Shown here: in pieces, positions 649 to 10,657 of the stretch
Layout of the letters: each line of letters starts with the position of its first letter
Position numbering within the stretch: the first letter of the stretch is position 1
Origin: an uncultured beta proteobacterium
Lineage (GTDB): Bacteria > Pseudomonadota > Gammaproteobacteria > Burkholderiales > Rhodocyclaceae
Direction of reading: 5' to 3'
DNA: 10,657 nucleotides
Assembly: GCA_903917505.1 (NCBI GenBank)
Contig: CAIXAY010000532.1
Location: 1 to 10,657, forward strand
Translations under genes and position numbers: made by a program
The notes under the pieces: generated by a model
Told to the model about the DNA's origin: nothing
Seen by the model: only the letters and a program-made list of their open reading frames with translations
Databases searched by the model: none

Positions 649-3189
649 TCAATCGGCGAAGGCGGCGAGGCGCGCCCGGACTTCGGTGGTGGTGCCCATC
701 TGCACAACCTCCTGCGCCAGCAGCTGGCACTCGGCGAGCGAGAGGCGCTTGACCAGCGCCTTGATCGCCGGGATCGCCGGCACCGATACCGACAGTTCAT
801 GGACGCCGAGGCCGATCAGCACCGGCACGGCCATCGGGTCGGAGGCCATGCCGCCGCACACGCCGACCCACTTGCCGTGCTTGCGCGCGCCTTCGCAAGT
901 GAGCGCGATCATTTTGAGCACGGCCGGATGCAGGCCGTCGGCTTTCTTCGCCAGCTTGGGATTGCCGCGGTCCATGGCCAGCGTGTATTGGGTCAGGTCA
1001 TTGGTGCCGATAGAGAAGAAGTCCGCTTCGCGCGCGAACTGCTCGGCCATCACCGCGGCCGAAGGCACCTCGATCATCACGCCGACCTTCACGTCGGTAT
1101 GGCCCTTGGCAAAATGCTCCTCGGCGAGAATGGCGGCGAGGATGGCCTTCGCCTCGCGCAGCTCTTCGAGCGTGGCGATCATCGGGAACATGATGTGCAG
1201 CTTGGCCAGCCGCGCCGTGCGCAGGATGGCGCGCAACTGGGTGCGGAACATTTCCGGCTGATCGAGGCTGACGCGCACGCCGCGCAGCCCGAGGAAAGGA
1301 TTGTCTTCTTTGGGCAATGGCAGGTAGGGCAAAGGCTTGTCGCCGCCGACGTCGAGCGTGCGGATGACCAGCGTGCGCTCGCTGCCGAGCGCCTCGGCGA
1401 CAGCCGTGTAGGCCGCGGCCTGCTCTTCCTCGTCGGGCGCCGTCGCGCGATCGTCGAAGAGGAATTCGGAACGCAGCAGGCCGACACCTTCGGCGCCGTT
1501 GGCCACGCCCTCGAGCGCGTCCCCGGCGTTGCGCACATTGGCCACCACTTCGATATGCTGGCCGTCGGTGGTCACCGCCGGGGCGAAGGCGCCGGCCAGT
1601 TCCTCCGTGCGTATGGCGGCCTGGCGCGCGACGCGCTCGTGCGCCGCGGCGATCCCGGCCGCGCTCGGATTGCGCTGCAGCAGCCCCTTGCTGCCGTCGA
1701 GCACGACCAGCGTACCGTCGGCCAGCGCCAGCGCCGCCTCGTCGATGCCGCAGATGGCCGGGATGCCGAACGAGCGCGCGAGGATCGCCACGTGGCTGGT
1801 CGCCCCGCCGGTCGTGGTGCAGAAGCCGAGCAGCTTGCTGCGATCGAAGGCGGCCGTGTCGGACGGGGTGAGTTCCTCGGCGATCAGAATAGCCCCTTCG
1901 GGCACGACGACCTGCGCCTGCTTGACGCCGGCGAGCAGCGCCAGAACACGGCGTCCGACGTCGCGGATGTCGTTGCCGCGTTCGCGCAGCAGCGCATTGT
2001 TGTCGCCGGCAAGCGCTTCCAGGCGGCCGGCGTATTCCGTGAACGCGGCGCGCCAGGCGAAGGCCGCGCTCTTCCCCTGGCTAATACCCTGGATCGCCAG
2101 GTCGATGAGGTCGGGATCTTCGAGCAGTTCCTCGTGCGCGCCGAGAATCTGCGCCTTGGTCGGGTCGGAGAACTGCCCCTCGAGCGCCTTGATCTGCGCG
2201 CGCGCGTCGTGCAGCGCGGCGTCGAGCTTGCTCCGCTCATGCGTCGGCGTGCCGCCGTTTTCGGCGACCTCGATCGCCTGGTGGCGGAACTGCACGACGC
2301 GGCCGACCGCCAGGCCGGGCGAGGCCGAAACGCCGACGAGTTCGTCGGCCGAAGCGGCGATGGCGCGCTGCGGCGTCACAGCAGCAGGCGCCTGCGGCGC
2401 ATCGCCGGGCTTCTCGCCGCAACCTTCGGCGAGCAGGAGCGAGAGCTTGCGCACCGCTTCGTTGGCATCGGGACCGCTGGCCTTGACTCGGATCGCGTCG
2501 CCGAGCTTGGTGGCCAGCCCCAGGATGGACACCACCGACTTGGCGTTGGCTTCGCCGGTCTCGCGCAGGAGGCGAATGTCGGACTTGAATTTTTTCGCTT
2601 CGGCGGCGAGCAGCGCGGCCGGCCGGGCGTGCAAACCGGAGGCGTTGGGCAGGCTAACCGGATCGCCGGTGATTGCAATTCCCGCACTGGCCGCGGCCGT
2701 GGCGACGGCGGCGGTTTCCGCGAGTTCCAGCGTCAACACCACCGACTTGCCGGCGACGACGAGGCCGCTCGCTGGAATGAAGCGCGCAACCTTCTCGACG
2801 TTGGCGATCAGAATCTGGGTCAGCAGACTGAGCGCCTTGCGGGCGACGAGGTCGGCGTCGAAGCTGATCAGCACCTGGCCGATGTCGACATGGTCGCCCT
2901 CTTTGACTTTCGCCGTAAAGCCCTCGCCCTTGAGCGCCACGGTATCGATGCCGATATGCAGCAGCACTTCGATCCCCTGCGCGGTGGTGATGGTCAGCGC
3001 GTGATTGGCGCGGTGCAACTGGGTCACGATTCCGGCGACCGGCGCAAGCAGGTCGGTCGAGGTCGGATCGAGCGAAACGCCGTCGCCGACCATCTTCTGG
3101 GCAAAAACCGGATCGGGCACGGATTCCAGCGCGACCAGAATACCGGACAGGGGCGCAAGCAATTCAAGGCGGACGGGGGGCGTACTCAT
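649..3189 (-). CDS. PTS multiphosphoryl transfer protein, EIIA(Glc)-HPr-EI fusion
   Basis: A single 846-residue cytosolic protein carries three phosphotransfer modules in the order EIIA (about 1-150), HPr (about 175-262) and enzyme I (about 283-846). EI takes phosphate from PEP and passes it through HPr to EIIA and then to the EIIB of the permease. In EIIA the two glucose-family histidines are present, His63 (ANHAL) and His78 (LLHIGIDTV). In HPr the phospho-His is His187 in ASGLHARPAA, and Ser218 aligns with regulatory Ser46. In EI the phospho-His is His466 in GGATSHVAILAR; the PEP-site segments FSIGTNDLTQYTLAMDRGN (725-743) and Cys778 in GVCGGMASDP are intact. An Ala/Pro-rich linker (about 263-281) separates HPr from EI. 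The ATG has AGGAG 9 bases upstream. The gene lies between GH1 and ptsG in the same orientation. Fusions of this order are known in Betaproteobacteria (NagF) and, with a fructose-type EIIA, as FruB; here EIIA is glucose-type. Confidence 0.96.
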   Translation of the reverse strand: MSTPPVRLELLAPLSGILVALESVPDPVFAQKMVGDGVSLDPTSTDLLAPVAGIVTQLHRANHALTITTAQGIEVLLHIGIDTVALKGEGFTAKVKEGDHVDIGQVLISFDADLVARKALSLLTQILIANVEKVARFIPASGLVVAGKSVVLTLELAETAAVATAAASAGIAITGDPVSLPNASGLHARPAALLAAEAKKFKSDIRLLRETGEANAKSVVSILGLATKLGDAIRVKASGPDANEAVRKLSLLLAEGCGEKPGDAPQAPAAVTPQRAIAASADELVGVSASPGLAVGRVVQFRHQAIEVAENGGTPTHERSKLDAALHDARAQIKALEGQFSDPTKAQILGAHEELLEDPDLIDLAIQGISQGKSAAFAWRAAFTEYAGRLEALAGDNNALLRERGNDIRDVGRRVLALLAGVKQAQVVVPEGAILIAEELTPSDTAAFDRSKLLGFCTTTGGATSHVAILARSFGIPAICGIDEAALALADGTLVVLDGSKGLLQRNPSAAGIAAAHERVARQAAIRTEELAGAFAPAVTTDGQHIEVVANVRNAGDALEGVANGAEGVGLLRSEFLFDDRATAPDEEEQAAAYTAVAEALGSERTLVIRTLDVGGDKPLPYLPLPKEDNPFLGLRGVRVSLDQPEMFRTQLRAILRTARLAKLHIMFPMIATLEELREAKAILAAILAEEHFAKGHTDVKVGVMIEVPSAAVMAEQFAREADFFSIGTNDLTQYTLAMDRGNPKLAKKADGLHPAVLKMIALTCEGARKHGKWVGVCGGMASDPMAVPVLIGLGVHELSVSVPAIPAIKALVKRLSLAECQLLAQEVVQMGTTTEVRARLAAFAD

Positions 3190-3315: not shown

Positions 3316-4749
3316 CTAGAGCCCCGCCCCGTTATCGGCGATGACCGTCCGATACCAGAAGAAACTGTCCTTGCGGATTCGTCGCAGTTCTTTGGCATCC
3401 TGCTCGTCGCGATCGACATAGACAAACCCGTAGCGCTTCTGGTAGCCATTGAGCCAGCTGAGAAGATCGGTGAACGACCAGGCACAGTAGCCGAGCAGGT
3501 CGACGCCATCGTTGATCGCCTCCTTGCAGGCGATGATGTGGGCTTTCAGATAGGCGATCCGGTAATCGTCGCGGATGCGGTCCCCTTCCTCCAGCCGATC
3601 GAATTCGCCGAGCCCGTTCTCGGTGATCAGGATCGGCAAGGCATAGCGCGCGGCAAGACGGCGCAGGCCGACGCGCAGCCCGGCCGGATCGATGGTCCAG
3701 TCCCAGTTCGTCGTTTCCAGATGCGGATTGACCGCCGTCCTGTACAAGCCCGGCACCCCGCTCGACGGCGTGCTGCCATTCACGCCCGTGGTATTGATGC
3801 GCTGCATCGTCTGGCCATCCGGATTATCGGTGTAGGTCAGGCTCTGGTAATAGTTCACGCCAATGAAGTCCGGACGATTATGCCGCAAGAGATCGAGGTC
3901 CCCGGGCAGAATATCGGGAGCCTCCCCCACCTCGCGCAGACAGGCGAGCGCAGCCTGCGGATAACGCCCCAGGCAATAGGCGTCCAGCCACCAGTCATTG
4001 GTGAACGCTTCGGCATTTTCGCAGGCCAGCAGGTCCTTCGGGTGGCATGACAGCGGGTAGGCCGGCGAATAGGCAAAGCTCGGGCCGATCAGACCGTCGG
4101 GAACGCAGCGGCGAAACGCGCCTATCGCCCGGGCATTGGCGAGAAAGGCAATGTGGTTGGCCGCGAAGAATCGCTTGCGATCTCGCACAGCGGGCGGATG
4201 GGCGCCGATTTGGTAGGCGTTGCTCAGGTTGTAGTTCTGCTCGTTGAGCGATACCCAGTATTTCACCTTGCCTGCAAAACGCCGGAACAGCGTGACGCAA
4301 TACGCTTCAAAATCGGCAATGATGCGTCTGTCCTCCCAGCCACTGTACGCATCCTGCAAGGGCTGCGGCAAGTCCCAGTGATAAAGCGTCAGCACCGGCT
4401 CGATGTGGTTCGCCAGCAAGGCGTCGACCAGCGCTTCGTAGAAAGCGAGACCCGCTTCGTTCGGCGCGCCCCGGCCTTGCGGGTAAATGCGCGGCCAACT
4501 GACCGAGAAGCGATAGGCCTTGAGCCCCATTTCGGCCATCAGGGCCACGTCCTCCCTGAAGCGATGGTAATGGTCGACAGCGACATCGCCATTGCTGCCG
4601 CGGAAGGTTGCGCCAGGCTGCTTGCAGAACGTGTCCCATACCGACGGGCCCTTGCCATCGACGTCCCATGCGCCTTCCGCCTGATAGGCCGCAGACGCGG
4701 CGCCCCACAAGAAACCGTCAGGAAATTCATTGCGTTTTGGGCGATGCAT
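3316..4749 (-). CDS. GH1 6-phospho-beta-glucosidase
   Basis: A 477-residue glycoside hydrolase family 1 enzyme of the usual length, with no signal peptide, so cytosolic. The family start FPDGFLWGAASAAYQAEGA (9-27) is present. The acid/base is Glu170 in SLNEQN and the nucleophile is Glu377 in ITENGLG; Gln24 and His124 (YHWDLP) line the glycone site. Near the C terminus SWLNGYQKRYG gives Ser431, Lys438 and Tyr440. These have the same spacing as the phosphate-binding Ser/Lys/Tyr set of LacG-type enzymes, where plain beta-glucosidases carry an NFEW-type motif. It should therefore hydrolyse 6-phospho-beta-glucosides or related 6-phospho-glycosides delivered by a PTS. It is first in the minus-strand cluster, 126 bp ahead of the PTS genes, which fits. 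The ATG has AAGGAAG upstream. Aglycone and glucose-versus-galactose preference cannot be read from the sequence. Confidence 0.93.
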   Translation of the reverse strand: MHRPKRNEFPDGFLWGAASAAYQAEGAWDVDGKGPSVWDTFCKQPGATFRGSNGDVAVDHYHRFREDVALMAEMGLKAYRFSVSWPRIYPQGRGAPNEAGLAFYEALVDALLANHIEPVLTLYHWDLPQPLQDAYSGWEDRRIIADFEAYCVTLFRRFAGKVKYWVSLNEQNYNLSNAYQIGAHPPAVRDRKRFFAANHIAFLANARAIGAFRRCVPDGLIGPSFAYSPAYPLSCHPKDLLACENAEAFTNDWWLDAYCLGRYPQAALACLREVGEAPDILPGDLDLLRHNRPDFIGVNYYQSLTYTDNPDGQTMQRINTTGVNGSTPSSGVPGLYRTAVNPHLETTNWDWTIDPAGLRVGLRRLAARYALPILITENGLGEFDRLEEGDRIRDDYRIAYLKAHIIACKEAINDGVDLLGYCAWSFTDLLSWLNGYQKRYGFVYVDRDEQDAKELRRIRKDSFFWYRTVIADNGAGL

Positions 4750-4811: not shown

Positions 4812-4900
4812 ATGAAGCGGCGGACGCAGTTTTCGCCAATCCGCGAACCCTGATATCGCGCAGCACCGGCCGGGACAGGCAAGGCATCGCTCCCGGAATC

Positions 4901-4922
4901 AATGAATACTTTATAGTATCTG
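4901..4922 (+). promoter_or_regulatory. Inverted-repeat operator upstream of dctP1, copy 1
   Basis: ATACT (4906-4910) and AGTAT (4915-4919) form a perfect inverted repeat around TTAT. The context AATGnATAC-N6-GTATCTG recurs at 7042-7063 in front of the isomerase gene, in the same position relative to TTGACA. Its centre is about 10 bp upstream of the -35 box, so the bound protein could repress by overlap or activate from near -45. Short ATAC/GTAT arms are the style of GntR-type operators, but the regulator is not in the window and its family is a guess. Confidence 0.7.
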
Positions 4923-4951
4923 TTGACATGCCTCGAGGTGTCCTCTATCGT
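4923..4951 (+). promoter_or_regulatory. Sigma70 promoter of the dctP1-kce operon
   Basis: A perfect -35 box TTGACA (4923-4928) is followed by a 17-bp spacer and the -10 box TATCGT (4946-4951). Transcription should begin near 4958, leaving a leader of about 120 nt before the dctP1 ATG. The same arrangement with the same spacer length occurs at 7064-7092, which strongly supports function. Confidence 0.75.
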
Positions 4952-5081: not shown

Positions 5082-6080
5082 ATGAGAACTAACAAGCTGC
5101 TGGCGGCTTTCGCGCTGACCAGCATGGCGTTGGCCACGGGGGCATACGCTCAGACGGTTCTGAAGTTCAGCCATACAGACCAGCAACAGGGCGGGCGGCA
5201 TGCGGCGGCGCAGATCTTTGCCAAGAAAGTCGCCGACTACACGCAGAACCGCTACAAGGTTAACGTCTTCTGCTGCAGCCAGCTCGGCAACGATCCGAAG
5301 AACATCGAACAACTCGTCGCCGGCGGCATCGACTTCACGGTTTCCGGAACCGGTTCCTACGCTCCCTTCATCGACAATCTGAATCTCACCGCCCTGCCCT
5401 TCCTGTTCGACAGCTACGAGCAGGGCTGGAAGTTCTACGACGAATCGAAGTGGCTGAAGGCGCAGTTCGACAAGGGCCCGGCCAAGGGGCTGCGCTTCCT
5501 GGCAACCTGGGAAGCCGGATTCCGCTGCATGACCACCAAGGATGTGCTTAACAGCCCGGCCGACGCCAAGGGCAAGAAGCTGCGCACCTTCCCGAACGAA
5601 ATGATGCGCTGGCTGCTCGAGGACATCGGTTTCGGCGTGCAGATCATGCCGCTGCCGGAAGTGTATCTGGCGATTCAGCAGGGCGCGATCGCCGGCCAGG
5701 AAAACCCGATCGATACGATCTACTCGAACAAGTTCTACGAAGTCGCGCCGAACATCACGATGACCCGCCACGTCTACAGCCCGATCCCGCTGGCGATTTC
5801 GGAAAAGACCTGGCAGAAGCTCTCGCCGGCCGACCAGAAAGCGATCACCCAGGCCGCCGTCGAAGCCGGCGCCTGGAACCGCATCGAGGTCAAGTCGAGC
5901 GAAGAGAAACAGATGGCCGAGATGGCCAGCAAGGGCGCCAAGATCAACAGCCCGAACCTGGCGCCCTTCCGCGAAGCGGTCAAGCCGACGCTCGAGAAGG
6001 CCAAGCTCAAGTACGGCGCCGATGTCGATGCGATCATGGCCGACGTCAATGCCGTGCGCAAGGCGCTGCCGGTCAAGTAA
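5082..6080 (+). CDS. dctP: TRAP transporter solute-binding protein, DctP family, paralog 1
   Basis: A periplasmic receptor that captures a solute, usually an organic or sugar acid, and delivers it to the DctQM membrane subunits. It has 332 residues. The signal peptide ends in TGAYA, with likely cleavage before Gln24. The mature start QTVLKFSHTD, QLGND (67-71), the ligand-carboxylate Arg168 in KKLRTFPNEM, and GQENPIDTIYSNKFYEVAPN (205-224) are DctP family hallmarks. The ATG at 5082 is chosen for its signal peptide and ideal AAGGAGG; the upstream TTG at 4923 in the same frame is the -35 box. Cys64-Cys65 stand where DctP proteins usually carry a Pro plus a small or polar residue. No membrane subunits follow; the next gene is kce. 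It probably shares DctQM with the close paralog at 8236. The substrate is unknown. Confidence 0.93.
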   Translation: MRTNKLLAAFALTSMALATGAYAQTVLKFSHTDQQQGGRHAAAQIFAKKVADYTQNRYKVNVFCCSQLGNDPKNIEQLVAGGIDFTVSGTGSYAPFIDNLNLTALPFLFDSYEQGWKFYDESKWLKAQFDKGPAKGLRFLATWEAGFRCMTTKDVLNSPADAKGKKLRTFPNEMMRWLLEDIGFGVQIMPLPEVYLAIQQGAIAGQENPIDTIYSNKFYEVAPNITMTRHVYSPIPLAISEKTWQKLSPADQKAITQAAVEAGAWNRIEVKSSEEKQMAEMASKGAKINSPNLAPFREAVKPTLEKAKLKYGADVDAIMADVNAVRKALPVK

Positions 6081-6094
6081 GCAGTGAATCAGGA

Positions 6095-6125
6095 GACAGC
6101 ATCGTCCGCTCCGGGCGATGCTGTC
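6095..6125 (+). other. Strong intercistronic hairpin between dctP1 and kce
   Basis: GACAGCATCG (6095-6104) pairs perfectly with CGATGCTGTC (6116-6125). Inside it, CCG (6106-6108) can pair with CGG (6112-6114), and T6105 with G6115 as a wobble, giving about 14 pairs around a CTC loop. No T run follows, so full termination is doubtful. Placed 14 nt after a receptor gene, it fits a 3' mRNA protector or partial terminator that raises receptor yield over downstream kce. Confidence 0.7.
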
Positions 6126-6168
6126 GCGCCGATGGTCGCGACGACATCGGCTGCGTGAGGATCATTCG

Positions 6169-6975
6169 ATGCAAAAGAAAATCGTCATTGCGCTTGCGCC
6201 AACGAGTGGCAAGCCCGGCATGCCCAACAACCCGATTCAGCCGGCAGCCATCGCCGCCGATGTGATCGACTGTGCGCGTGCCGGTGCCTCCGTCGTGCAT
6301 CTGCACGCTCGCGACAGGCAAGGCCGCTTGAGCACCGACCTCAGTGCTTTCAACGAGGCGGTACAGACGATCAAGGACGGCTGCGACATCATTCTCGAGG
6401 CCTCGACCGGCGGGCTGTCGGAGCTGACGCCGGAAGAGCGGGCGCTGCCGGCGGGCAATCCGCATGCGGAGATCGCCTCGCTCAACATCGGCTCGGTGAA
6501 CTTCGGCGATCTCGTCTATCAGAACGGCATGAAGGATGTGCGCTACTGGCTCAAGGTGCTCGCCGCGAAGGGGGCCAAGCCCAGCCTCGAGGTCTTCGAT
6601 ACCGGCAACATCGAATCGGCGCATCAGATGATCAGCGAGGGCCTGGTCAGCCTGCCCTGTAATTTCGGTTTTGTTTTCGGACTCAAATGGGGCATGGCCT
6701 ATCATCCGGCGATCCTCGCCTACCTGAAGTCCCGTGTTCCCGCCGGCAGCAACTGGGGCGCCGACTTCTTCGACAGTACGGATTTTTCCCAGCACCTGGA
6801 CGCCGCGCGGGAGGGCGCCACGATCCTGCGGGTCGGCTTCGAAGACTCGAATCAATACAACGGGAAGATCGCCGCGAGCAATGCCGAGCTGGTCATCGCC
6901 GTGCGCGAGGAACTCGAAGGCGCCGGCTATTCGATCGCCACGACGAGCGAAGCCAGAGCCATTCTCGGTCTCTGA
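6169..6975 (+). CDS. BKACE/Kce-family beta-keto acid cleavage enzyme (DUF849)
   Basis: A 268-residue TIM-barrel enzyme of the beta-keto acid cleavage family, whose founder Kce converts 3-keto-5-aminohexanoate plus acetyl-CoA into aminobutyryl-CoA and acetoacetate. The zinc ligands are visible as His44 and His46 in VVHLHARD and Glu225 in RVGFED. Other hallmarks are the N-terminal IALAPTSG, EASTGG (77-82) and NIGSVNFG (106-113). Members act on many 3-oxo acids, and specificity cannot be read here. The ATG at 6169 has GAGG 8 bases upstream. An in-frame ATG at 6118 lies inside the 6095-6125 hairpin and adds an Arg-rich stretch foreign to the family, so it is rejected. The gene lies 88 bp after dctP1, apparently in the same operon, suggesting it cleaves the imported solute or a derivative. 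Family is near certain; reaction is not. Confidence 0.92.
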   Translation: MQKKIVIALAPTSGKPGMPNNPIQPAAIAADVIDCARAGASVVHLHARDRQGRLSTDLSAFNEAVQTIKDGCDIILEASTGGLSELTPEERALPAGNPHAEIASLNIGSVNFGDLVYQNGMKDVRYWLKVLAAKGAKPSLEVFDTGNIESAHQMISEGLVSLPCNFGFVFGLKWGMAYHPAILAYLKSRVPAGSNWGADFFDSTDFSQHLDAAREGATILRVGFEDSNQYNGKIAASNAELVIAVREELEGAGYSIATTSEARAILGL

Positions 6976-6979
6976 GAGC

Positions 6980-6997
6980 CGGGCCGGCAGCGGCCCG
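6980..6997 (+). terminator. Hairpin after kce, possible terminator without T tract
   Basis: CGGGCCG (6980-6986) and CGGCCCG (6991-6997) form a perfect 7-bp GC stem with loop GCAG, starting 5 nt after the kce stop and before the next promoter at 7064. Position and stability suit the end of the dctP1-kce transcript. The missing T run means it could be a 3' stabiliser instead. Confidence 0.45.
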
Positions 6998-7041
6998 AAG
7001 CGCTAACGCGCGCACCGCGAAAGAGGCGTAAACCGGAAATT

Positions 7042-7063
7042 AATGCATACATTACGGTATCTG
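7042..7063 (+). promoter_or_regulatory. Inverted-repeat operator upstream of the isomerase gene, copy 2
   Basis: ATAC (7047-7050) and GTAT (7057-7060) are inverted arms around ATTACG. The arms, the preceding AATG and the following CTG are identical to copy 1 at 4901-4922, while the six central bases differ. Conservation of arms but not centre is what a dimeric regulator's operator should look like. It implies that both transcripts belong to one regulon. Confidence 0.7.
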
Positions 7064-7092
7064 TTGACACATTTTATGAACTTCTTTATGGT
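7064..7092 (+). promoter_or_regulatory. Sigma70 promoter of the isomerase-dctP2-dctQM operon
   Basis: TTGACA (7064-7069), a 17-bp spacer and TATGGT (7087-7092) form a good promoter with transcription expected near 7099. The in-frame ATG at 7093 overlaps the end of this promoter and so cannot be the isomerase start. GTAT also follows at the end of the -10 box here (7091-7094) and in copy 1 (4950-4953), 34 bp after the operator GTAT in both. Confidence 0.75.
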
Positions 7093-7102
7093 ATGCACAA
7101 TT

Positions 7103-7127
7103 TCCGGCGCCGGCTGCACGCGCCGGA
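7103..7127 (+). other. 5'-end hairpin of the isomerase transcript
   Basis: TCCGGCGC (7103-7110) pairs perfectly with GCGCCGGA (7120-7127) across a 9-nt loop, only a few nucleotides after the predicted start of transcription. Stable hairpins at an mRNA 5' end can slow RNase E-type decay. With no T run, termination is unlikely. Confidence 0.5.
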
Positions 7128-7173
7128 CCGCACGCCCTCGCCAACAACAGTACTCCCGTCAAGGAGCAACAAC

Positions 7174-8133
7174 ATGAAACAAAGCGTGATCATTGCCTTC
7201 CTCGGCAAGACCCAGGACCGTTTTTGCGAATACCACGCGAGCAAGACGACCCGCGAAAAGCTGCAGATGGTGCAGCAGATCAAGGGCTTCGACGGCGTCG
7301 AAATGGTTTATCCGCACGAGACGACCAACCCCGCGGAAATCAAGGCGATGATGCAGGAGTTCGGCCTCAACTGGGCGGCGATCAACGCCAACGTCAAGAA
7401 GGATCCGAAGTTCATTTCCGGCAGCCTGTCGCGCCCGAACAAGGCGATCCGCGACGAGGCCGTGGCCATCATCAAGCAGGCCAAGGATTTCGCCAAGGCC
7501 GTCGGCGCGCCGCACGTCACGTGCTGCCCGCTCTCCGACGGTTACGACATGCTGTTCCAGGTCGACTACAAGACGGCCTGGCGCTACATGATCGAAACGG
7601 TCGGCGAAGCCGCCGATTACCTGCCCGAGATTCCGCTCTTCCTCGAGCCCAAATATTCGGAAGTGCGCGTCCATTGCCAGCTCGACAGCACGGCCAAGAC
7701 GCTGCTGCTCCTCAAGGAAGTCGGCAACAAGAATACCGGCGTGACGCTCGACTTCGGGCACTCGATCATGAGCCAGGAAAACCCGGCGCAAATGCTGGTC
7801 ACCACGCTCGAATCGGGTTTCGACGTCTATGTGCACACCAACGACAACGACACCAAGGCCGACTGGGACCTGGTCGGCGGCAGCCGGCATTTCCTGGGCT
7901 ACGTCGAACTCTTGTTCTGGGCCAAGGAGTATGGCTACAACAAGTACTTCACCACCGACGCCTCGCCGCGCATTTTCGATACCATCGCTTTCTTCGAGCG
8001 CCATGCCGAACTCAGCCTGGGCATCTGGAACCTGGTCAACAAGCTCGACGCCAAGAAGTACCGCAAGCTGATGGCCGAAGAAAACTATGACGAGTTGATG
8101 CGTCTGGTCACCAAGGAAATCTATCGAGTGTAG
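7174..8133 (+). CDS. Xylose-isomerase-like TIM-barrel protein (sugar isomerase/epimerase family)
   Basis: A 319-residue cytosolic protein of the xylose isomerase-like TIM-barrel superfamily (COG1082 type), whose members isomerise or epimerise sugars, sugar phosphates or sugar acids with a divalent metal. The likely metal ligands are Glu158 (FLEPK), Asp193 (TLDFGH), His221 (YVHTND) and Asp262 (FTTDAS). Their spacing resembles tagatose 3-epimerase, including a His three residues after the Asp (His196), but the last ligand is Asp where Glu is usual. GFDGVEMVYPHE (38-49) fits an early barrel strand. The ATG at 7174 is chosen for AAGGAG at 7161-7166; an upstream in-frame ATG at 7093 lies in the promoter. 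It is first in the operon with dctP2-dctQ-dctM, so it probably acts on the imported compound. Dehydratase or lyase activity is possible in this superfamily; the exact reaction is unknown. Confidence 0.85.
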   Translation: MKQSVIIAFLGKTQDRFCEYHASKTTREKLQMVQQIKGFDGVEMVYPHETTNPAEIKAMMQEFGLNWAAINANVKKDPKFISGSLSRPNKAIRDEAVAIIKQAKDFAKAVGAPHVTCCPLSDGYDMLFQVDYKTAWRYMIETVGEAADYLPEIPLFLEPKYSEVRVHCQLDSTAKTLLLLKEVGNKNTGVTLDFGHSIMSQENPAQMLVTTLESGFDVYVHTNDNDTKADWDLVGGSRHFLGYVELLFWAKEYGYNKYFTTDASPRIFDTIAFFERHAELSLGIWNLVNKLDAKKYRKLMAEENYDELMRLVTKEIYRV

Positions 8134-8156
8134 GCCCGCGTTGTTCAGGCCGGGCC
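8133..8156 (+). other. Weak hairpin between the isomerase gene and dctP2
   Basis: GGCCCG (8133-8138) and CGGGCC (8151-8156) are inverted around a 12-nt loop immediately at the isomerase stop. No T run follows. The 102-bp gap otherwise shows no convincing promoter; TTGACA at 8216-8221 is too close to the dctP2 ATG to serve as one. Readthrough into dctP2 is assumed. Confidence 0.3.
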
Positions 8157-8235
8157 GAGCCGTTCTATGCCACTGTCCTTAGCCGCATTGCAGTCCGCTG
8201 TGGATATCTGCCCTTTGACAAACTGAGGAGGAATC

Positions 8236-9243
8236 ATGAAGACCACCAAGCTGCTGACCCACGTTGCTTTCGCGCTCACCGGCATTTCATTGGCCATGGG
8301 TGCTTACGCGCAAACTGTTCTGAAGTTCAGCCACACCGACCAGCAGCTGGGCGCGCGCCACGCCGCCGCGCTGATTTTCGCCAAGAAGGTCGCCGATTAC
8401 ACGCAGAACCGCTACAAGGTCAACGTCTTCTGCTGCGCGCAGTTGGCCAACGATAACAAGGCCATCGAGCAGCTCGTTGCCGGCGGCATCGATTTCACGG
8501 TCTCGGCGACGGGTTCCTACGCGGCCTATATCGACTCGCTGAACCTGACCATGCTGCCTTTCATGTTCGACAGCTATGAGCAAGGCTGGAAATGGTACGA
8601 CTCCTCGAAGTGGCTGAAGACCGAGTTTGACAAGGCGCCGGCCAAGGGCTTCCGCCTGCTCGCGACCTGGGAAGCCGGCTTCCGCTCGATGTCCACCAAG
8701 GATGTGCTGAACAGCCCGGCGGACGCCAAAGGCAAGAAGATGCGCACCTTCCCGAACGAGATGATGCGCTGGCTGCTCGAAGACATCGGTTTCGGCGTGC
8801 AGATCATGCCGCTGCCGGAAGTCTATCTGGGCATCCAGCAAGGCGCCATCGCCGGCCAGGAAAACCCGGTCGATACGATCTACTCGAACAAGTTCTACGA
8901 AGTAGCTCCGAACATCACGCTGACCCGCCACGTGTACAGCCCGATCCCGCTCGTCATCTCGGAAAAGACCTGGCAGAAGCTGTCGCCGGCCGACCAGAAG
9001 GCCATCACCCAGGCAGCCGTCGAAGCGCGTGACTGGGACCGCATCGAGGTGCGCGACAGCGAGGACAAGCAACTCGCCGAAATGGCCGGCAAGGGTGCCA
9101 AGGTCAACAACCCGAACATGACGCCGTTCCGCGACGCGGTCAAGCCGACCTACGAGAAGGCCAAGGCCAAATGGGGCGCCGACACCGATACCGTGCTGGC
9201 GGAAACGGCCGCGATACGCAAAGCTTATCCGGTCAAGAAATAA
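8236..9243 (+). CDS. dctP: TRAP transporter solute-binding protein, DctP family, paralog 2
   Basis: A 335-residue periplasmic receptor, about 83% identical over the mature part to the protein at 5082. Its signal peptide ends MGAYA, with cleavage expected before Gln26. It retains Arg170 in KKMRTFPNEM, GQENPVDTIYSNKFYEVAPN, and the vicinal Cys66-Cys67. Differences cluster in the signal peptide and the C-terminal third, for example VEARDW versus VEAGAW. Several substitutions fall between the Cys pair and the hinge (GTGSYAPF versus ATGSYAAY), where ligand preference might be tuned. GAGGAGG at 8225-8231 sets the ATG. It directly precedes dctQ and dctM and is their natural partner. The two receptors probably bind the same or closely related acids; I cannot name the ligand. 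Confidence 0.94.
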   Translation: MKTTKLLTHVAFALTGISLAMGAYAQTVLKFSHTDQQLGARHAAALIFAKKVADYTQNRYKVNVFCCAQLANDNKAIEQLVAGGIDFTVSATGSYAAYIDSLNLTMLPFMFDSYEQGWKWYDSSKWLKTEFDKAPAKGFRLLATWEAGFRSMSTKDVLNSPADAKGKKMRTFPNEMMRWLLEDIGFGVQIMPLPEVYLGIQQGAIAGQENPVDTIYSNKFYEVAPNITLTRHVYSPIPLVISEKTWQKLSPADQKAITQAAVEARDWDRIEVRDSEDKQLAEMAGKGAKVNNPNMTPFRDAVKPTYEKAKAKWGADTDTVLAETAAIRKAYPVKK

Positions 9244-9305
9244 GCGCGTCTTTCATTAATCTGGCGGGGGAATCATCTTGGTTGCTGAACATAACGTTGC
9301 GGCCA

Positions 9306-9332
9306 GCCCGCACGACTTGTTGCCGTGCGGGC
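9306..9332 (+). other. Hairpin between dctP2 and dctQ
   Basis: GCCCGCACG (9306-9314) pairs perfectly with CGTGCGGGC (9324-9332) across a 9-nt loop, with no T run afterwards. It would protect upstream receptor mRNA and lower dctQM expression, as known for receptor/permease operons of other transporters. If dctQ starts at the TTG at 9278, the hairpin lies inside its first 20 codons instead. Confidence 0.6.
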
Positions 9333-9355
9333 CGATACAGGCGTGGCCCATTCAT

Positions 9356-9829
9356 ATGCTGGCGAGGTTGATCGATTGGCTGCTGGTGGTTGCCGCGGCG
9401 GTCATGATCGTGCTGGTTTTTTTCAATGTCTGTGCGCACGCGCTCAGCCACGACCTCGCGCAGACCACCGAAGCCTGCGAACTCCTGATGGTCTGGGTGT
9501 CTTTTCTCGGCGGCGCGTCGATCATTCGCCGCTCGGGGCACATGACCATCACCGAGTTCATCGACAAGCTGCAAGGCAAGCCGCGGCTCGCGGCCGATTT
9601 CTGCGTCCAGGTTTTTGCCCTCGGGGTGCTGGCCATCCTGTTCTGGAACGGCCTGATCATCATCGGCAACAACTGGGGCAACGTGCTCACCGTGCTGCAG
9701 ATTCCGATGGCCTTTCAATACATGCCACTGGCCATCGGTAGCGGAGCGGCGATGATCTTCGTGATTTATGACCTTTACCTGATTCTTCGCGGCAAGTCCC
9801 GTGAAGAGCGCTACGGGGCGGACGAATAA
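9356..9829 (+). CDS. dctQ: TRAP transporter small permease subunit DctQ
   Basis: The small membrane subunit that joins the receptor to the DctM channel of a TRAP transporter. From ATG 9356 it has 157 residues with four hydrophobic helices, at about 7-28, 41-57, 83-104 and 120-145. ASIIRRSGHMTITEFID (54-70) is the usual loop after helix 2, and NNWG (105-108) ends helix 3. The start is uncertain. ATG 9356 puts the first helix at the N terminus and leaves the 9306-9332 hairpin untranslated, but its ribosome site is poor. An in-frame TTG at 9278, behind GGCGGGGG, would add 26 residues with no recognisable feature. The stop overlaps the dctM ATG by one base (TAATG), implying coupled translation. 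Sequence of small subunits diverges fast, but the context makes the call firm. Confidence 0.88.
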   Translation: MLARLIDWLLVVAAAVMIVLVFFNVCAHALSHDLAQTTEACELLMVWVSFLGGASIIRRSGHMTITEFIDKLQGKPRLAADFCVQVFALGVLAILFWNGLIIIGNNWGNVLTVLQIPMAFQYMPLAIGSGAAMIFVIYDLYLILRGKSREERYGADE

Positions 9830-10657
9830 TGCTCACCATCCAGATCTTCGGCATCTTCTTCGTTATCGTCCTGCTCGGCATCCCGCTCTATTTCGGCCTG
9901 ATCGCCACGACCGCCGGCATCATCTATTTCAAGGACCTGCCCTATCAACTCGACTCCCTGCTCTTGAATCTGATCGCCGGCGTCGAACCCTTCATCCTGA
10001 TCGCCGTGCCGCTGTTCATTTTCGCCGGCGAACTGCTCTCGCGCGGCGGCGTTGGCAAACGCATCGTCGCCTTTGCCAACGTGCTCTTCGGCTGGATGCC
10101 GGGCGGCATGGGCGTGGTGACCATCGTCTCCTGCCTGATGTTCGGCGGCGTTTCCGGTTCGGCCATCGCCGACACCGCGGCGATCGGTTCGCTGGTCGCC
10201 CCGACCATGAAGCAAAAGGGTTATCACCCGGACTTCACCGCGGCGCTCTTGTCGGTGGCCGGTACCCTGGCGCTCCTGATGCCTCTGTCGATTCCCTTCC
10301 TGGTCTTTGCTTTCATTTCCGGCGCGTCGATGCGCATCCTGTCGATGTCGGGGGTCATTCCGGGATTTATCTGCGCCGCCTCCCTGGCGGTCGTCTGCAT
10401 TCGCTACGGCAAGAAAACGGGATGCGACAACGGCTCGGCCAGGGCTTCGCTGCCCGAGGTCTGGGCCGTCACCAAGGATGCGGGGCCGGCACTCTTGATG
10501 CCGGTAATCATCGTCGGCGGCATCTGGACCGGCATCTTCACGCCGACCGAAGCGGCGGCGGTGGCGGTGGTGTATGGCCTCATCGTCTCGCTCTTCCTGT
10601 ACAAGGATCTGAAGCCGCGCGACCTGCCGGCGCTCGCCTTGAAGGCCTTTCAGACCA
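9829..10657 (+). CDS. dctM: TRAP transporter large permease subunit DctM, 3' end outside window
   Basis: The main membrane subunit of the TRAP transporter, which moves the solute inward with sodium or protons. The visible 276 residues are very hydrophobic and follow DctM order: LFIFAGELLSRGG (62-74), FGWMPGGMGVV (87-97), the hallmark GVSGSAIADTAAIGS (107-121), GYHPDF (131-136), GVIPGF (175-180) and GIFTPTEAAAVAVVYG (235-250). The usual STIGPIIPPS-type loop reads GTLALLMPLS (145-154): only one proline of the PP pair remains, and the preceding Gly-Pro is lost. The ATG overlaps the dctQ stop. About 150 residues are expected beyond the right edge, since DctM proteins are usually about 425 long. 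It should serve both receptors in the window. Confidence 0.95.
   Translation, partial: MLTIQIFGIFFVIVLLGIPLYFGLIATTAGIIYFKDLPYQLDSLLLNLIAGVEPFILIAVPLFIFAGELLSRGGVGKRIVAFANVLFGWMPGGMGVVTIVSCLMFGGVSGSAIADTAAIGSLVAPTMKQKGYHPDFTAALLSVAGTLALLMPLSIPFLVFAFISGASMRILSMSGVIPGFICAASLAVVCIRYGKKTGCDNGSARASLPEVWAVTKDAGPALLMPVIIVGGIWTGIFTPTEAAAVAVVYGLIVSLFLYKDLKPRDLPALALKAFQT

Follow-up and report, generated by a model that had tools for sequence, protein, structure and literature searches.

Gene content and relatives of a TRAP transporter, BKACE and TIM-barrel isomerase cluster in an uncultured beta proteobacterium

A contig of an uncultured beta proteobacterium (CAIXAY010000532.1; the window, that is, the whole stretch of 10,657 nucleotides analysed) carries genes for a TRAP importer, a beta-keto acid cleavage enzyme (BKACE) and a xylose-isomerase-like TIM barrel (TIM) close together. 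Do these genes form one catabolic pathway, in which the isomerase turns an imported acid into a 3-oxo acid for BKACE to cleave, as an earlier note on this DNA had proposed? No title or abstract describing this gene set was found among the top matches listed, in a search that covered mostly non-subscription journals; as far as literature listings go, the module is uncharacterised, and it is built of known enzyme families.

Genes of the window and their promoter-operator element

All the genes that the earlier note had claimed between 5082 and 10657 can be found in frame, each scoring higher than its Pfam gathering threshold. This segment encodes, entirely on the + strand, DctP1, BKACE, TIM, DctP2, DctQ and a partial DctM, in two units with one type of promoter-operator element common to both:

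4906..4951, + strand: operator ATACTTTATAGTAT (4906-4919, exact match) and promoter-like TTGACA-N17-TATCGT (4923-4951), 5' of dctP1
5082..6080, + strand: dctP1, TRAP receptor paralogue, 332 aa; Pfam DctP 235.6 bits
6095..6125, + strand: strong hairpin between dctP1 and BKACE; 14-nt arms, 93% complementary, 3 nt between
6169..6975, + strand: BKACE (beta-keto acid cleavage enzyme family), 268 aa; Pfam PF05853 227 bits, gathering score 24.8
7047..7094, + strand: operator ATACATTACGGTAT (7047-7060) and TTGACA (7064) to TATGGT (ends 7092), 5' of TIM
7081-7094, + strand: weaker second operator copy, 2 mismatches, within the 7047..7094 element
7174..8133, + strand: xylose-isomerase-like TIM barrel, 319 aa; AP_endonuc_2 82.1 bits, cut-off 31.1
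8236..9243, + strand: dctP2, TRAP receptor, 335 aa; Pfam DctP 230 bits
9278..9829, + strand: dctQ, TRAP small permease, TTG start as listed; Pfam DctQ 78.3 bits
9829..10657, + strand: dctM, TRAP large permease, truncated where the window stops; Pfam DctM 224.5 bits, profile 1-268 of 413

The hairpin at 6095..6125 also folds in the intergenic RNA. Base 9829 is common to the DctQ and DctM reading frames, and DctM is represented by its first 276 codons. Left of 5082, on the - strand, lie a GH1 enzyme and a fused EIIA-HPr-EI phosphotransferase; a frame at 1-621, also on the - strand, resembles PTS EIIC by eye.

The operator ATACNTTANNGTAT occurs without mismatch at 4906-4919 and 7047-7060 only, and each site is followed, after 3 bases, by TTGACA-N17-TATNGT. 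With up to two mismatches on both strands it has 5 matches, compared with a mean of 0.14 in 200 shuffles, none of which reached 5; the pattern was derived from the two sites themselves, so that these odds express rarity and are not an independent test. GTATCTGTTGACA, likewise with up to two mismatches, has 2 matches, both exact, against a shuffle mean of 0.06, and a 37-nt direct repeat (4892-4928 / 7033-7069) shows 81% identity. Unlike the shuffle odds, the occurrence of the operator in relatives provides independent support: it stands 5' of TIM, with 0-2 mismatches, in all six close relatives examined (L001-L005, and L079 of genome G938). Tandem operators 34 nt apart are found there in L002, L003, L004, L005 and L079, and L001 has a single copy. 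In the same six loci a GntR gene adjoins TIM or lies one ABM gene away, and the regulator of the element is presumably this GntR protein, which is not encoded in the window. The stretches around the BKACE genes of P. dicarboxylicus (L075) and G938 (L100) are without the operator. Operator-promoter copies before both units, together with the operator kept in relatives, bear out the co-regulation of BKACE with TIM that the earlier note had put forward; its "one regulatory element" holds in that both units have the same element, although this is present as two copies, at 4906 and 7047.

DctP1 and DctP2 are 82% identical and are sisters in an eight-row tree (98/98) that excludes the receptors of relatives, from which we infer that dctP was duplicated in the lineage of the window. 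BKACE lies behind one of the duplicated dctP copies, under a further promoter copy. R150, R170 and N210 (DctP2 numbering) are invariant in eight aligned receptors, including both from the window, and correspond to the carboxylate site R152, R173 and N213 described for 4P47 in the accessible part of PMC11668362, with a spacing of the Arg pair of 20 compared with 21 in 4P47, a difference of one residue that also shows as a gap in the alignment with 4pdd; the 4P47 positions come from that paper rather than from a sequence alignment. This Arg/Arg/Asn set upholds the acid importer of the earlier note; according to the same portion of that paper (PMC11668362), the ligand in the closed relatives of IseP is pantoate or erythronate. 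The structural model of DctP, of modest quality (pLDDT 71), resembles TRAP receptors of several ligand classes. We take 4pdd and 4pdh to be TRAP receptor structures with erythronate bound.

The isomerase clade and its conserved neighbourhood

The best match of TIM, by sequence and by fold, is 3ktc, which we take to be D-apiose isomerase. TIM nevertheless scores far under every curated cut-off, with 40.2 bits for the xylose isomerase equivalog TIGR02631 (cut-off 447), 42.1 for the L-rhamnose isomerase equivalog TIGR02635 (531.35) and 31.6 for the OtnI equivalog NF043033 (325). Its model is nearest xylose and rhamnose isomerases, the metal-site region aligning with L-rhamnose isomerase. An OtnI-type isomerase was rejected on score and fold type, which leaves the earlier note's analogy with OtnI weak; judged by the model, the window TIM resembles the aldose-ketose isomerases (3ktc, xylose and rhamnose isomerase), not OtnI.

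Residues of the xylose/rhamnose isomerase type (E158, K160, D193, H196, H221, D224 and D262) are all found in TIM and in every acid-clade row with a residue at the position, one row being truncated; the aligned positions presumably act as the E, D, H, H, D metal ligands and the catalytic Lys. The TIM clade also carries K75 and R266, which are missing in nine homologues (eight distinct) outside it, six of them ABC-linked and three in other contexts, and this contrast in aligned sequences suggests that the two residues mark a carboxylated substrate. Because the signature is confined to one clade (support 100/99), it represents one historical event, a point against reading it as a substrate mark. 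If K75 and R266 do mark acid substrates, the clade is misleadingly annotated as "xylose isomerase" or "sugar phosphate isomerase/epimerase". Among species genomes, the nearest TIM gene (89%) comes from an Accumulibacter-labelled MAG.

A pattern scan of genome contigs yielded 63 TIM loci, 64 with the window, and conservation in other genomes, which the earlier note had left to be checked, is established for the TIM cluster. When ORFs were clustered, the neighbours within five picked ORFs of TIM in the 64 loci were an MFS transporter in at least 44, GntR in 38, a cupin in 38, a DUF5060 protein in 23, a GlcG-like protein in 21, DhaK in 18, DhaL in 17, a Bacteroidota-type TIM2 in 15, RpiB in 13 and DctP in 6, all counts being lower bounds, given that ORF picking was mechanical and that seven loci do not reach 7 kb. 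TIM heads a conserved module consisting mostly of GntR, an acid-type transporter and either DhaK/DhaL or a cupin. The cupin, which is like D-lyxose/D-mannose isomerase, and DhaK share no locus among the 64, and eight loci (the window, L001, L003, L004, L005, L017, L030 and L059) have neither. Since the fates after TIM differ in this way (38 cupin, 18 DhaK), a single tetrose-phosphate end point fails to explain all loci. The one MFS member tested comes closest to the model of the D-galactonate transporter, without reaching the cut-off (273.4 vs 395).

In P. dicarboxylicus DSM 5885 and G938 the gene order is TIM-DctP-DctQ-DctM-TIM2-DhaK-DhaL-RpiB-GntR, and the L005 contig ends within the same TIM2, directly after DctM. 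Because all three such loci that reach past DctM agree, TIM2-DhaK-DhaL-RpiB-GntR is predicted to lie right of 10657. In P. dicarboxylicus, RpiB exceeds the cut-off of the plain RpiB subfamily (155.6 vs 135) and falls below that for D-erythrulose-4-phosphate isomerase (DerI; 228.2 bits, cut-off 240); DhaL scores above the threshold of the general model for dihydroxyacetone kinase L (178.4 vs 138.3), and DhaK and TIM2 are under all equivalog cut-offs. Plasmids of Paracoccus seriniphilus and Roseibium aggregatum carry GntR-DctPQM-TIM-TIM2, with a TIM 31-32% identical to that of the window; their TIM2 bears no close similarity to the one in P. dicarboxylicus. All plasmid matches (132 records for TIM, 562 for BKACE) are below 60% identity, and pattern scans of viral contigs gave no relative of TIM or BKACE. 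An aldose epimerase gene is the second after TIM in Roseibium, and L002 ends with a frame that, by eye, resembles aldose epimerase; such genes near TIM would suit a cyclic aldose acid.

In Pseudomonadota, Bacteroidota, Verrucomicrobiota and Planctomycetota, gene sets of the sugar-acid type are headed by one unnamed isomerase clade, and, if K75 and R266 mark acid substrates, assigning its substrate would assign many operons at once.

BKACE and the possible routes

H44, H46, R221, E225 and D226 of the window BKACE are invariant in 24 aligned sequences, itself included, and place it in the family; these His/His/Glu, Arg and Asp residues are presumably the metal and catalytic residues, as in Kce structures. 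It is a full BKACE, yet belongs to no named equivalog, scoring 200 bits for the 3-keto-5-aminohexanoate cleavage enzyme (NF052387; equivalog cut-off 382). Close relatives are rare: four samples of 399, 395, 398 and 198 genomes contained one each (E 1e-70 to 1e-65), in every case the centre genome itself. Among 28 genomes of the genus of G001, TIM occurs in six, a close BKACE in three and both in two, a co-occurrence that is not significant (Fisher p 0.107). Close BKACE (at least 56% identity, the value for G938) was found in three of the 50 TIM-bearing genomes searched, namely 49 of the genomes of the 63 loci plus G938. At E 1e-20 nine of those 49 have any BKACE, two at 57-65% identity and the others at 38% or less.

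BKACE stands beside TIM in two of the 64 loci, the window and one of Prolixibacteraceae (L017), in which the order is MFS-TIM2-TIM-transaldolase-like-GlcG-BKACE and BKACE is the last gene; the locus DNA examined contains no DhaK and only a remnant of DhaL, a 40-residue stretch 5' of TIM. The co-occurrence that the earlier note looked for is thus seen in a second, unrelated genome with BKACE in the TIM operon, but adjacency is limited to these two loci, so that the lack of co-occurrence named in that note as a refutation is half borne out. Next to TIM one usually finds either DhaK/DhaL, together with an RpiB/DerI-like isomerase and a second TIM barrel, or the lyxose-isomerase-like cupin; BKACE lies outside the conserved TIM core as an optional extra and perhaps serves as an alternative outlet.

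In P. dicarboxylicus, G938 and G1352 (Propionivibrio group), all three genomes of the genus with this BKACE, the order BKACE-DctP-DctQM(fused)-ABM-racemase-like is kept, with its own TRAP and, in two, OtnK. The operon is followed in G938 by OtnK (641.7, cut-off 350), OtnC (319.4, cut-off 250) and GntR; the P. dicarboxylicus contig breaks off within OtnK, of which 127 residues can be compared (98% identical), and G1352 has a GntR gene in place of OtnK. A tree of 71 BKACE rows, 67 of them chosen among the 120 matches listed, places the window and L017 in one 28-row set (96/97), for which genomic context is known for one row besides the window, and the Otn-linked sequences in another (98/97). With the latter groups the BKACE of P0150, for which the longest contig has the same length (15528) as for P0019, a TIM match, a hint of a possible third association of the two enzymes.

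The reading that we prefer, and to which we give an even chance, is an isomerase module for a uronate-like sugar acid that leads on to tetrose or triose phosphates and into which BKACE was brought as an alternative outlet. Its basis is observed, namely gene content, shared operator and promoter, conserved core, residue signature, receptor motif and isomerase fold; its regulator, substrate, order of steps, carboxylate contact, CO2 loss and BKACE reaction would be as follows. A GntR-type regulator probably controls the module. DctP1 and DctP2 with DctQM would import a hydroxylated carboxylate, probably a uronate-like aldehydo acid, which TIM, binding divalent metals as in xylose/rhamnose isomerase, would convert into a keto acid by aldose-ketose isomerisation, the carboxylate being held by K75 and R266. 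The second TIM barrel, predicted by synteny right of 10657, would move the carbonyl further and so allow loss of CO2, although no decarboxylase was seen in the module; DhaK/DhaL and a DerI/RpiB-like isomerase, whose genes are also predicted by synteny, would then phosphorylate the product and yield erythrose-4-phosphate or triose phosphate, the former by chemistry like that described for LerK, LerI and DerI (PMC10733421). BKACE is probably a recruited outlet, because dctP is duplicated and one copy lies with BKACE under a copy of the same promoter, and it would use acetyl-CoA to cleave a 3-oxo acid arising along the same route. A more specific route is unlikely to hold as a whole: TIM (K75/R266 clade) and TIM2 would walk the carbonyl of a uronate-like acid, taken up by TRAP, to C3, and the 3-oxo acid would either lose CO2 to give erythrulose, on which DhaKL and DerI would act to give erythrose-4-phosphate, or be cleaved by BKACE with acetyl-CoA, which would have replaced the kinase branch in the Prolixibacteraceae locus. 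An optional BKACE would make this a test case for the recruitment of a retro-Claisen outlet into a sugar-acid pathway.

The linear route of the earlier note, in which BKACE has to cleave a 3-oxo acid formed by TIM, we regard as improbable. The shared operator co-regulates the two genes, BKACE lies within the TIM operon of the Prolixibacteraceae genome, and the ABM proteins of TIM clusters (L002, L003) and BKACE clusters (L075, L100) are 49-52% identical; there is also a precedent, proposed in the portion of PMC6365646 available, for a BKACE with a polyhydroxy 3-oxo acid as substrate, namely 2-deoxy-3-ketoribonate. However, 62 of the 64 TIM loci (seven of them shorter than 7 kb) are without BKACE in the locus DNA examined, 47 of the 50 TIM genomes searched are without a close one, and G1352 has BKACE without TIM, all of which argues against one obligatory pathway. 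Unlikely to a similar degree is that BKACE and dctP1 were acquired and share only the regulator, BKACE acting on a separate four-carbon acid, as its OtnK-side relatives may do. The G938 operon with its own TRAP, OtnK and OtnC, the same order in P. dicarboxylicus up to the start of OtnK at the contig end, and the gene order kept in all three BKACE genomes of the genus are consistent with this, but the window BKACE groups with the L017-type set, not with the Otn-linked one, and comes with the same operator as TIM and with a duplicated copy of the receptor linked to TIM.

Least probable, and quite unlikely, is a TIM that, like D-apiose isomerase, would isomerise a branched or neutral sugar, with a transporter importing a neutral sugar. 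The match to 3ktc in sequence and fold and the glycoside-hydrolase-like genes near TIM in Bacteroidota point that way, against which stand the carboxylate-binding set kept in the receptors, the lack of K75/R266 in the six ABC-linked and three other homologues checked, and an apiosidase match under the cut-off (E 0.0093). Apiose from the nearby hydrolases was rejected, the match being sub-threshold and no solved apiosidase appearing among the matches. The D-apionate route involves an OiaC-like TIM; on reading the modules, no gene for an oxidoisomerase was noticed.

Comparison with known systems

The L-threonate/D-erythronate pathway comprises OtnI, OtnK and OtnC, as given in the part of PMC12540250 at hand. 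The module is like it, on that account, in handling acid sugars with a TIM-barrel isomerase that moves a carbonyl to give a 3-oxo acid (PMC12540250), and OtnK and OtnC adjoin the BKACE homologue in G938; unlike it, the window TIM has 31.6 bits to OtnI (cut-off 325), and profile searches of the window, which is cut at both ends, detected no OtnK, OtnC or LtnD-type dehydrogenase among its genes. The tetritol/erythrulose pathway consists of LerK, LerI, DerI and EryC, LerI being a TpiA homologue (PMC10733421, excerpted). Candidate counterparts, a DhaK/DhaL kinase and a DerI-like isomerase, occur in the P. dicarboxylicus module; the candidates for LerK, LerI and DerI are in relatives, since the window ends before the predicted genes. 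In contrast to that pathway, the modules read add an acid importer and a xylose-isomerase-like TIM, no tetritol dehydrogenase was noticed in them, and TIM2 belongs to PF01261, unlike the TpiA homologue LerI (PMC10733421, same excerpts).

In the oxidative 2-deoxyribonate pathway, the substrate put forward for BKACE is likewise a polyhydroxy 3-oxo acid (2-deoxy-3-ketoribonate), the cleavage itself not being directly shown there (PMC6365646, in the portion available). Unlike that pathway, the window has no SDR dehydrogenase or lactonase among its genes, its transporter is TRAP, not MFS, and TIM is present. With xylose and L-rhamnose isomerases and 3ktc, the window TIM shares its fold and metal-site residues; it differs from them in falling far under the curated cut-offs and in K75 and R266, which are specific to its clade among the rows compared.

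Genes to the left of the module and the hairpin behind dctP1

To the left of the module in the window, the EIIA, HPr and EI components of the sugar phosphotransferase system are fused in one protein, and two further features adjoin this fusion:

1-621: EIIC-like frame, recognized by eye
649-3189, minus strand: EIIA-HPr-EI fusion, a single 846-aa protein
3316-4749: GH1 enzyme

The gap between the TRAP receptor gene dctP1 and the BKACE gene contains a strong hairpin (6095-6125; 14-nt arms separated by 3 nt) without a T run, which may set the ratio of receptor to enzyme.

DhaL- and DhaK-like sequences in individual loci

In the Prolixibacteraceae locus L017, the sole Bacteroidota locus carrying BKACE, a DhaL-like stretch of 40 residues (9743-9862) lies upstream of the TIM gene and is 62.5% identical to P. 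dicarboxylicus DhaL, and a search of the locus for DhaK found none. This stretch is a remnant of the kinase branch (DhaK/DhaL). The DhaK homologues of L084 (G003, C156) and L083 (G004, C126), from two related genomes, are 47% identical to the DhaK of L012, and each contains one in-frame TGA.

Other neighbors of TIM and BKACE homologues

Small ABM-domain proteins are encoded in TIM or BKACE operons of L002, L003, L004, L015, L075, L079, L100 and L105; they could be mutarotases or LsrG-like isomerases. Near the TIM gene of the Pirellulaceae locus L030 are a DUF1537-type kinase gene and an isopropylmalate/tartrate-dehydrogenase-like gene, both scoring below all cut-offs. Downstream of the Bacteroidota TIM operons of L012, L019, L020 and L039 are proteins with DUF5060 and Collagen_bind_2 domains (cluster c4); that of L039 has kelch repeats, and that of L019, which is kelch-free, matched 4n0r only weakly among solved structures.

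Beside the TIM module of P. dicarboxylicus (L101, 1-8500) is a 3-dehydro-L-gulonate 2-dehydrogenase gene (470.4 bits against a cut-off of 316), together with frames resembling, by eye, mannonate dehydratase, Gfo/Idh and Zn-alcohol dehydrogenase; this combination suggests a sugar-acid island.
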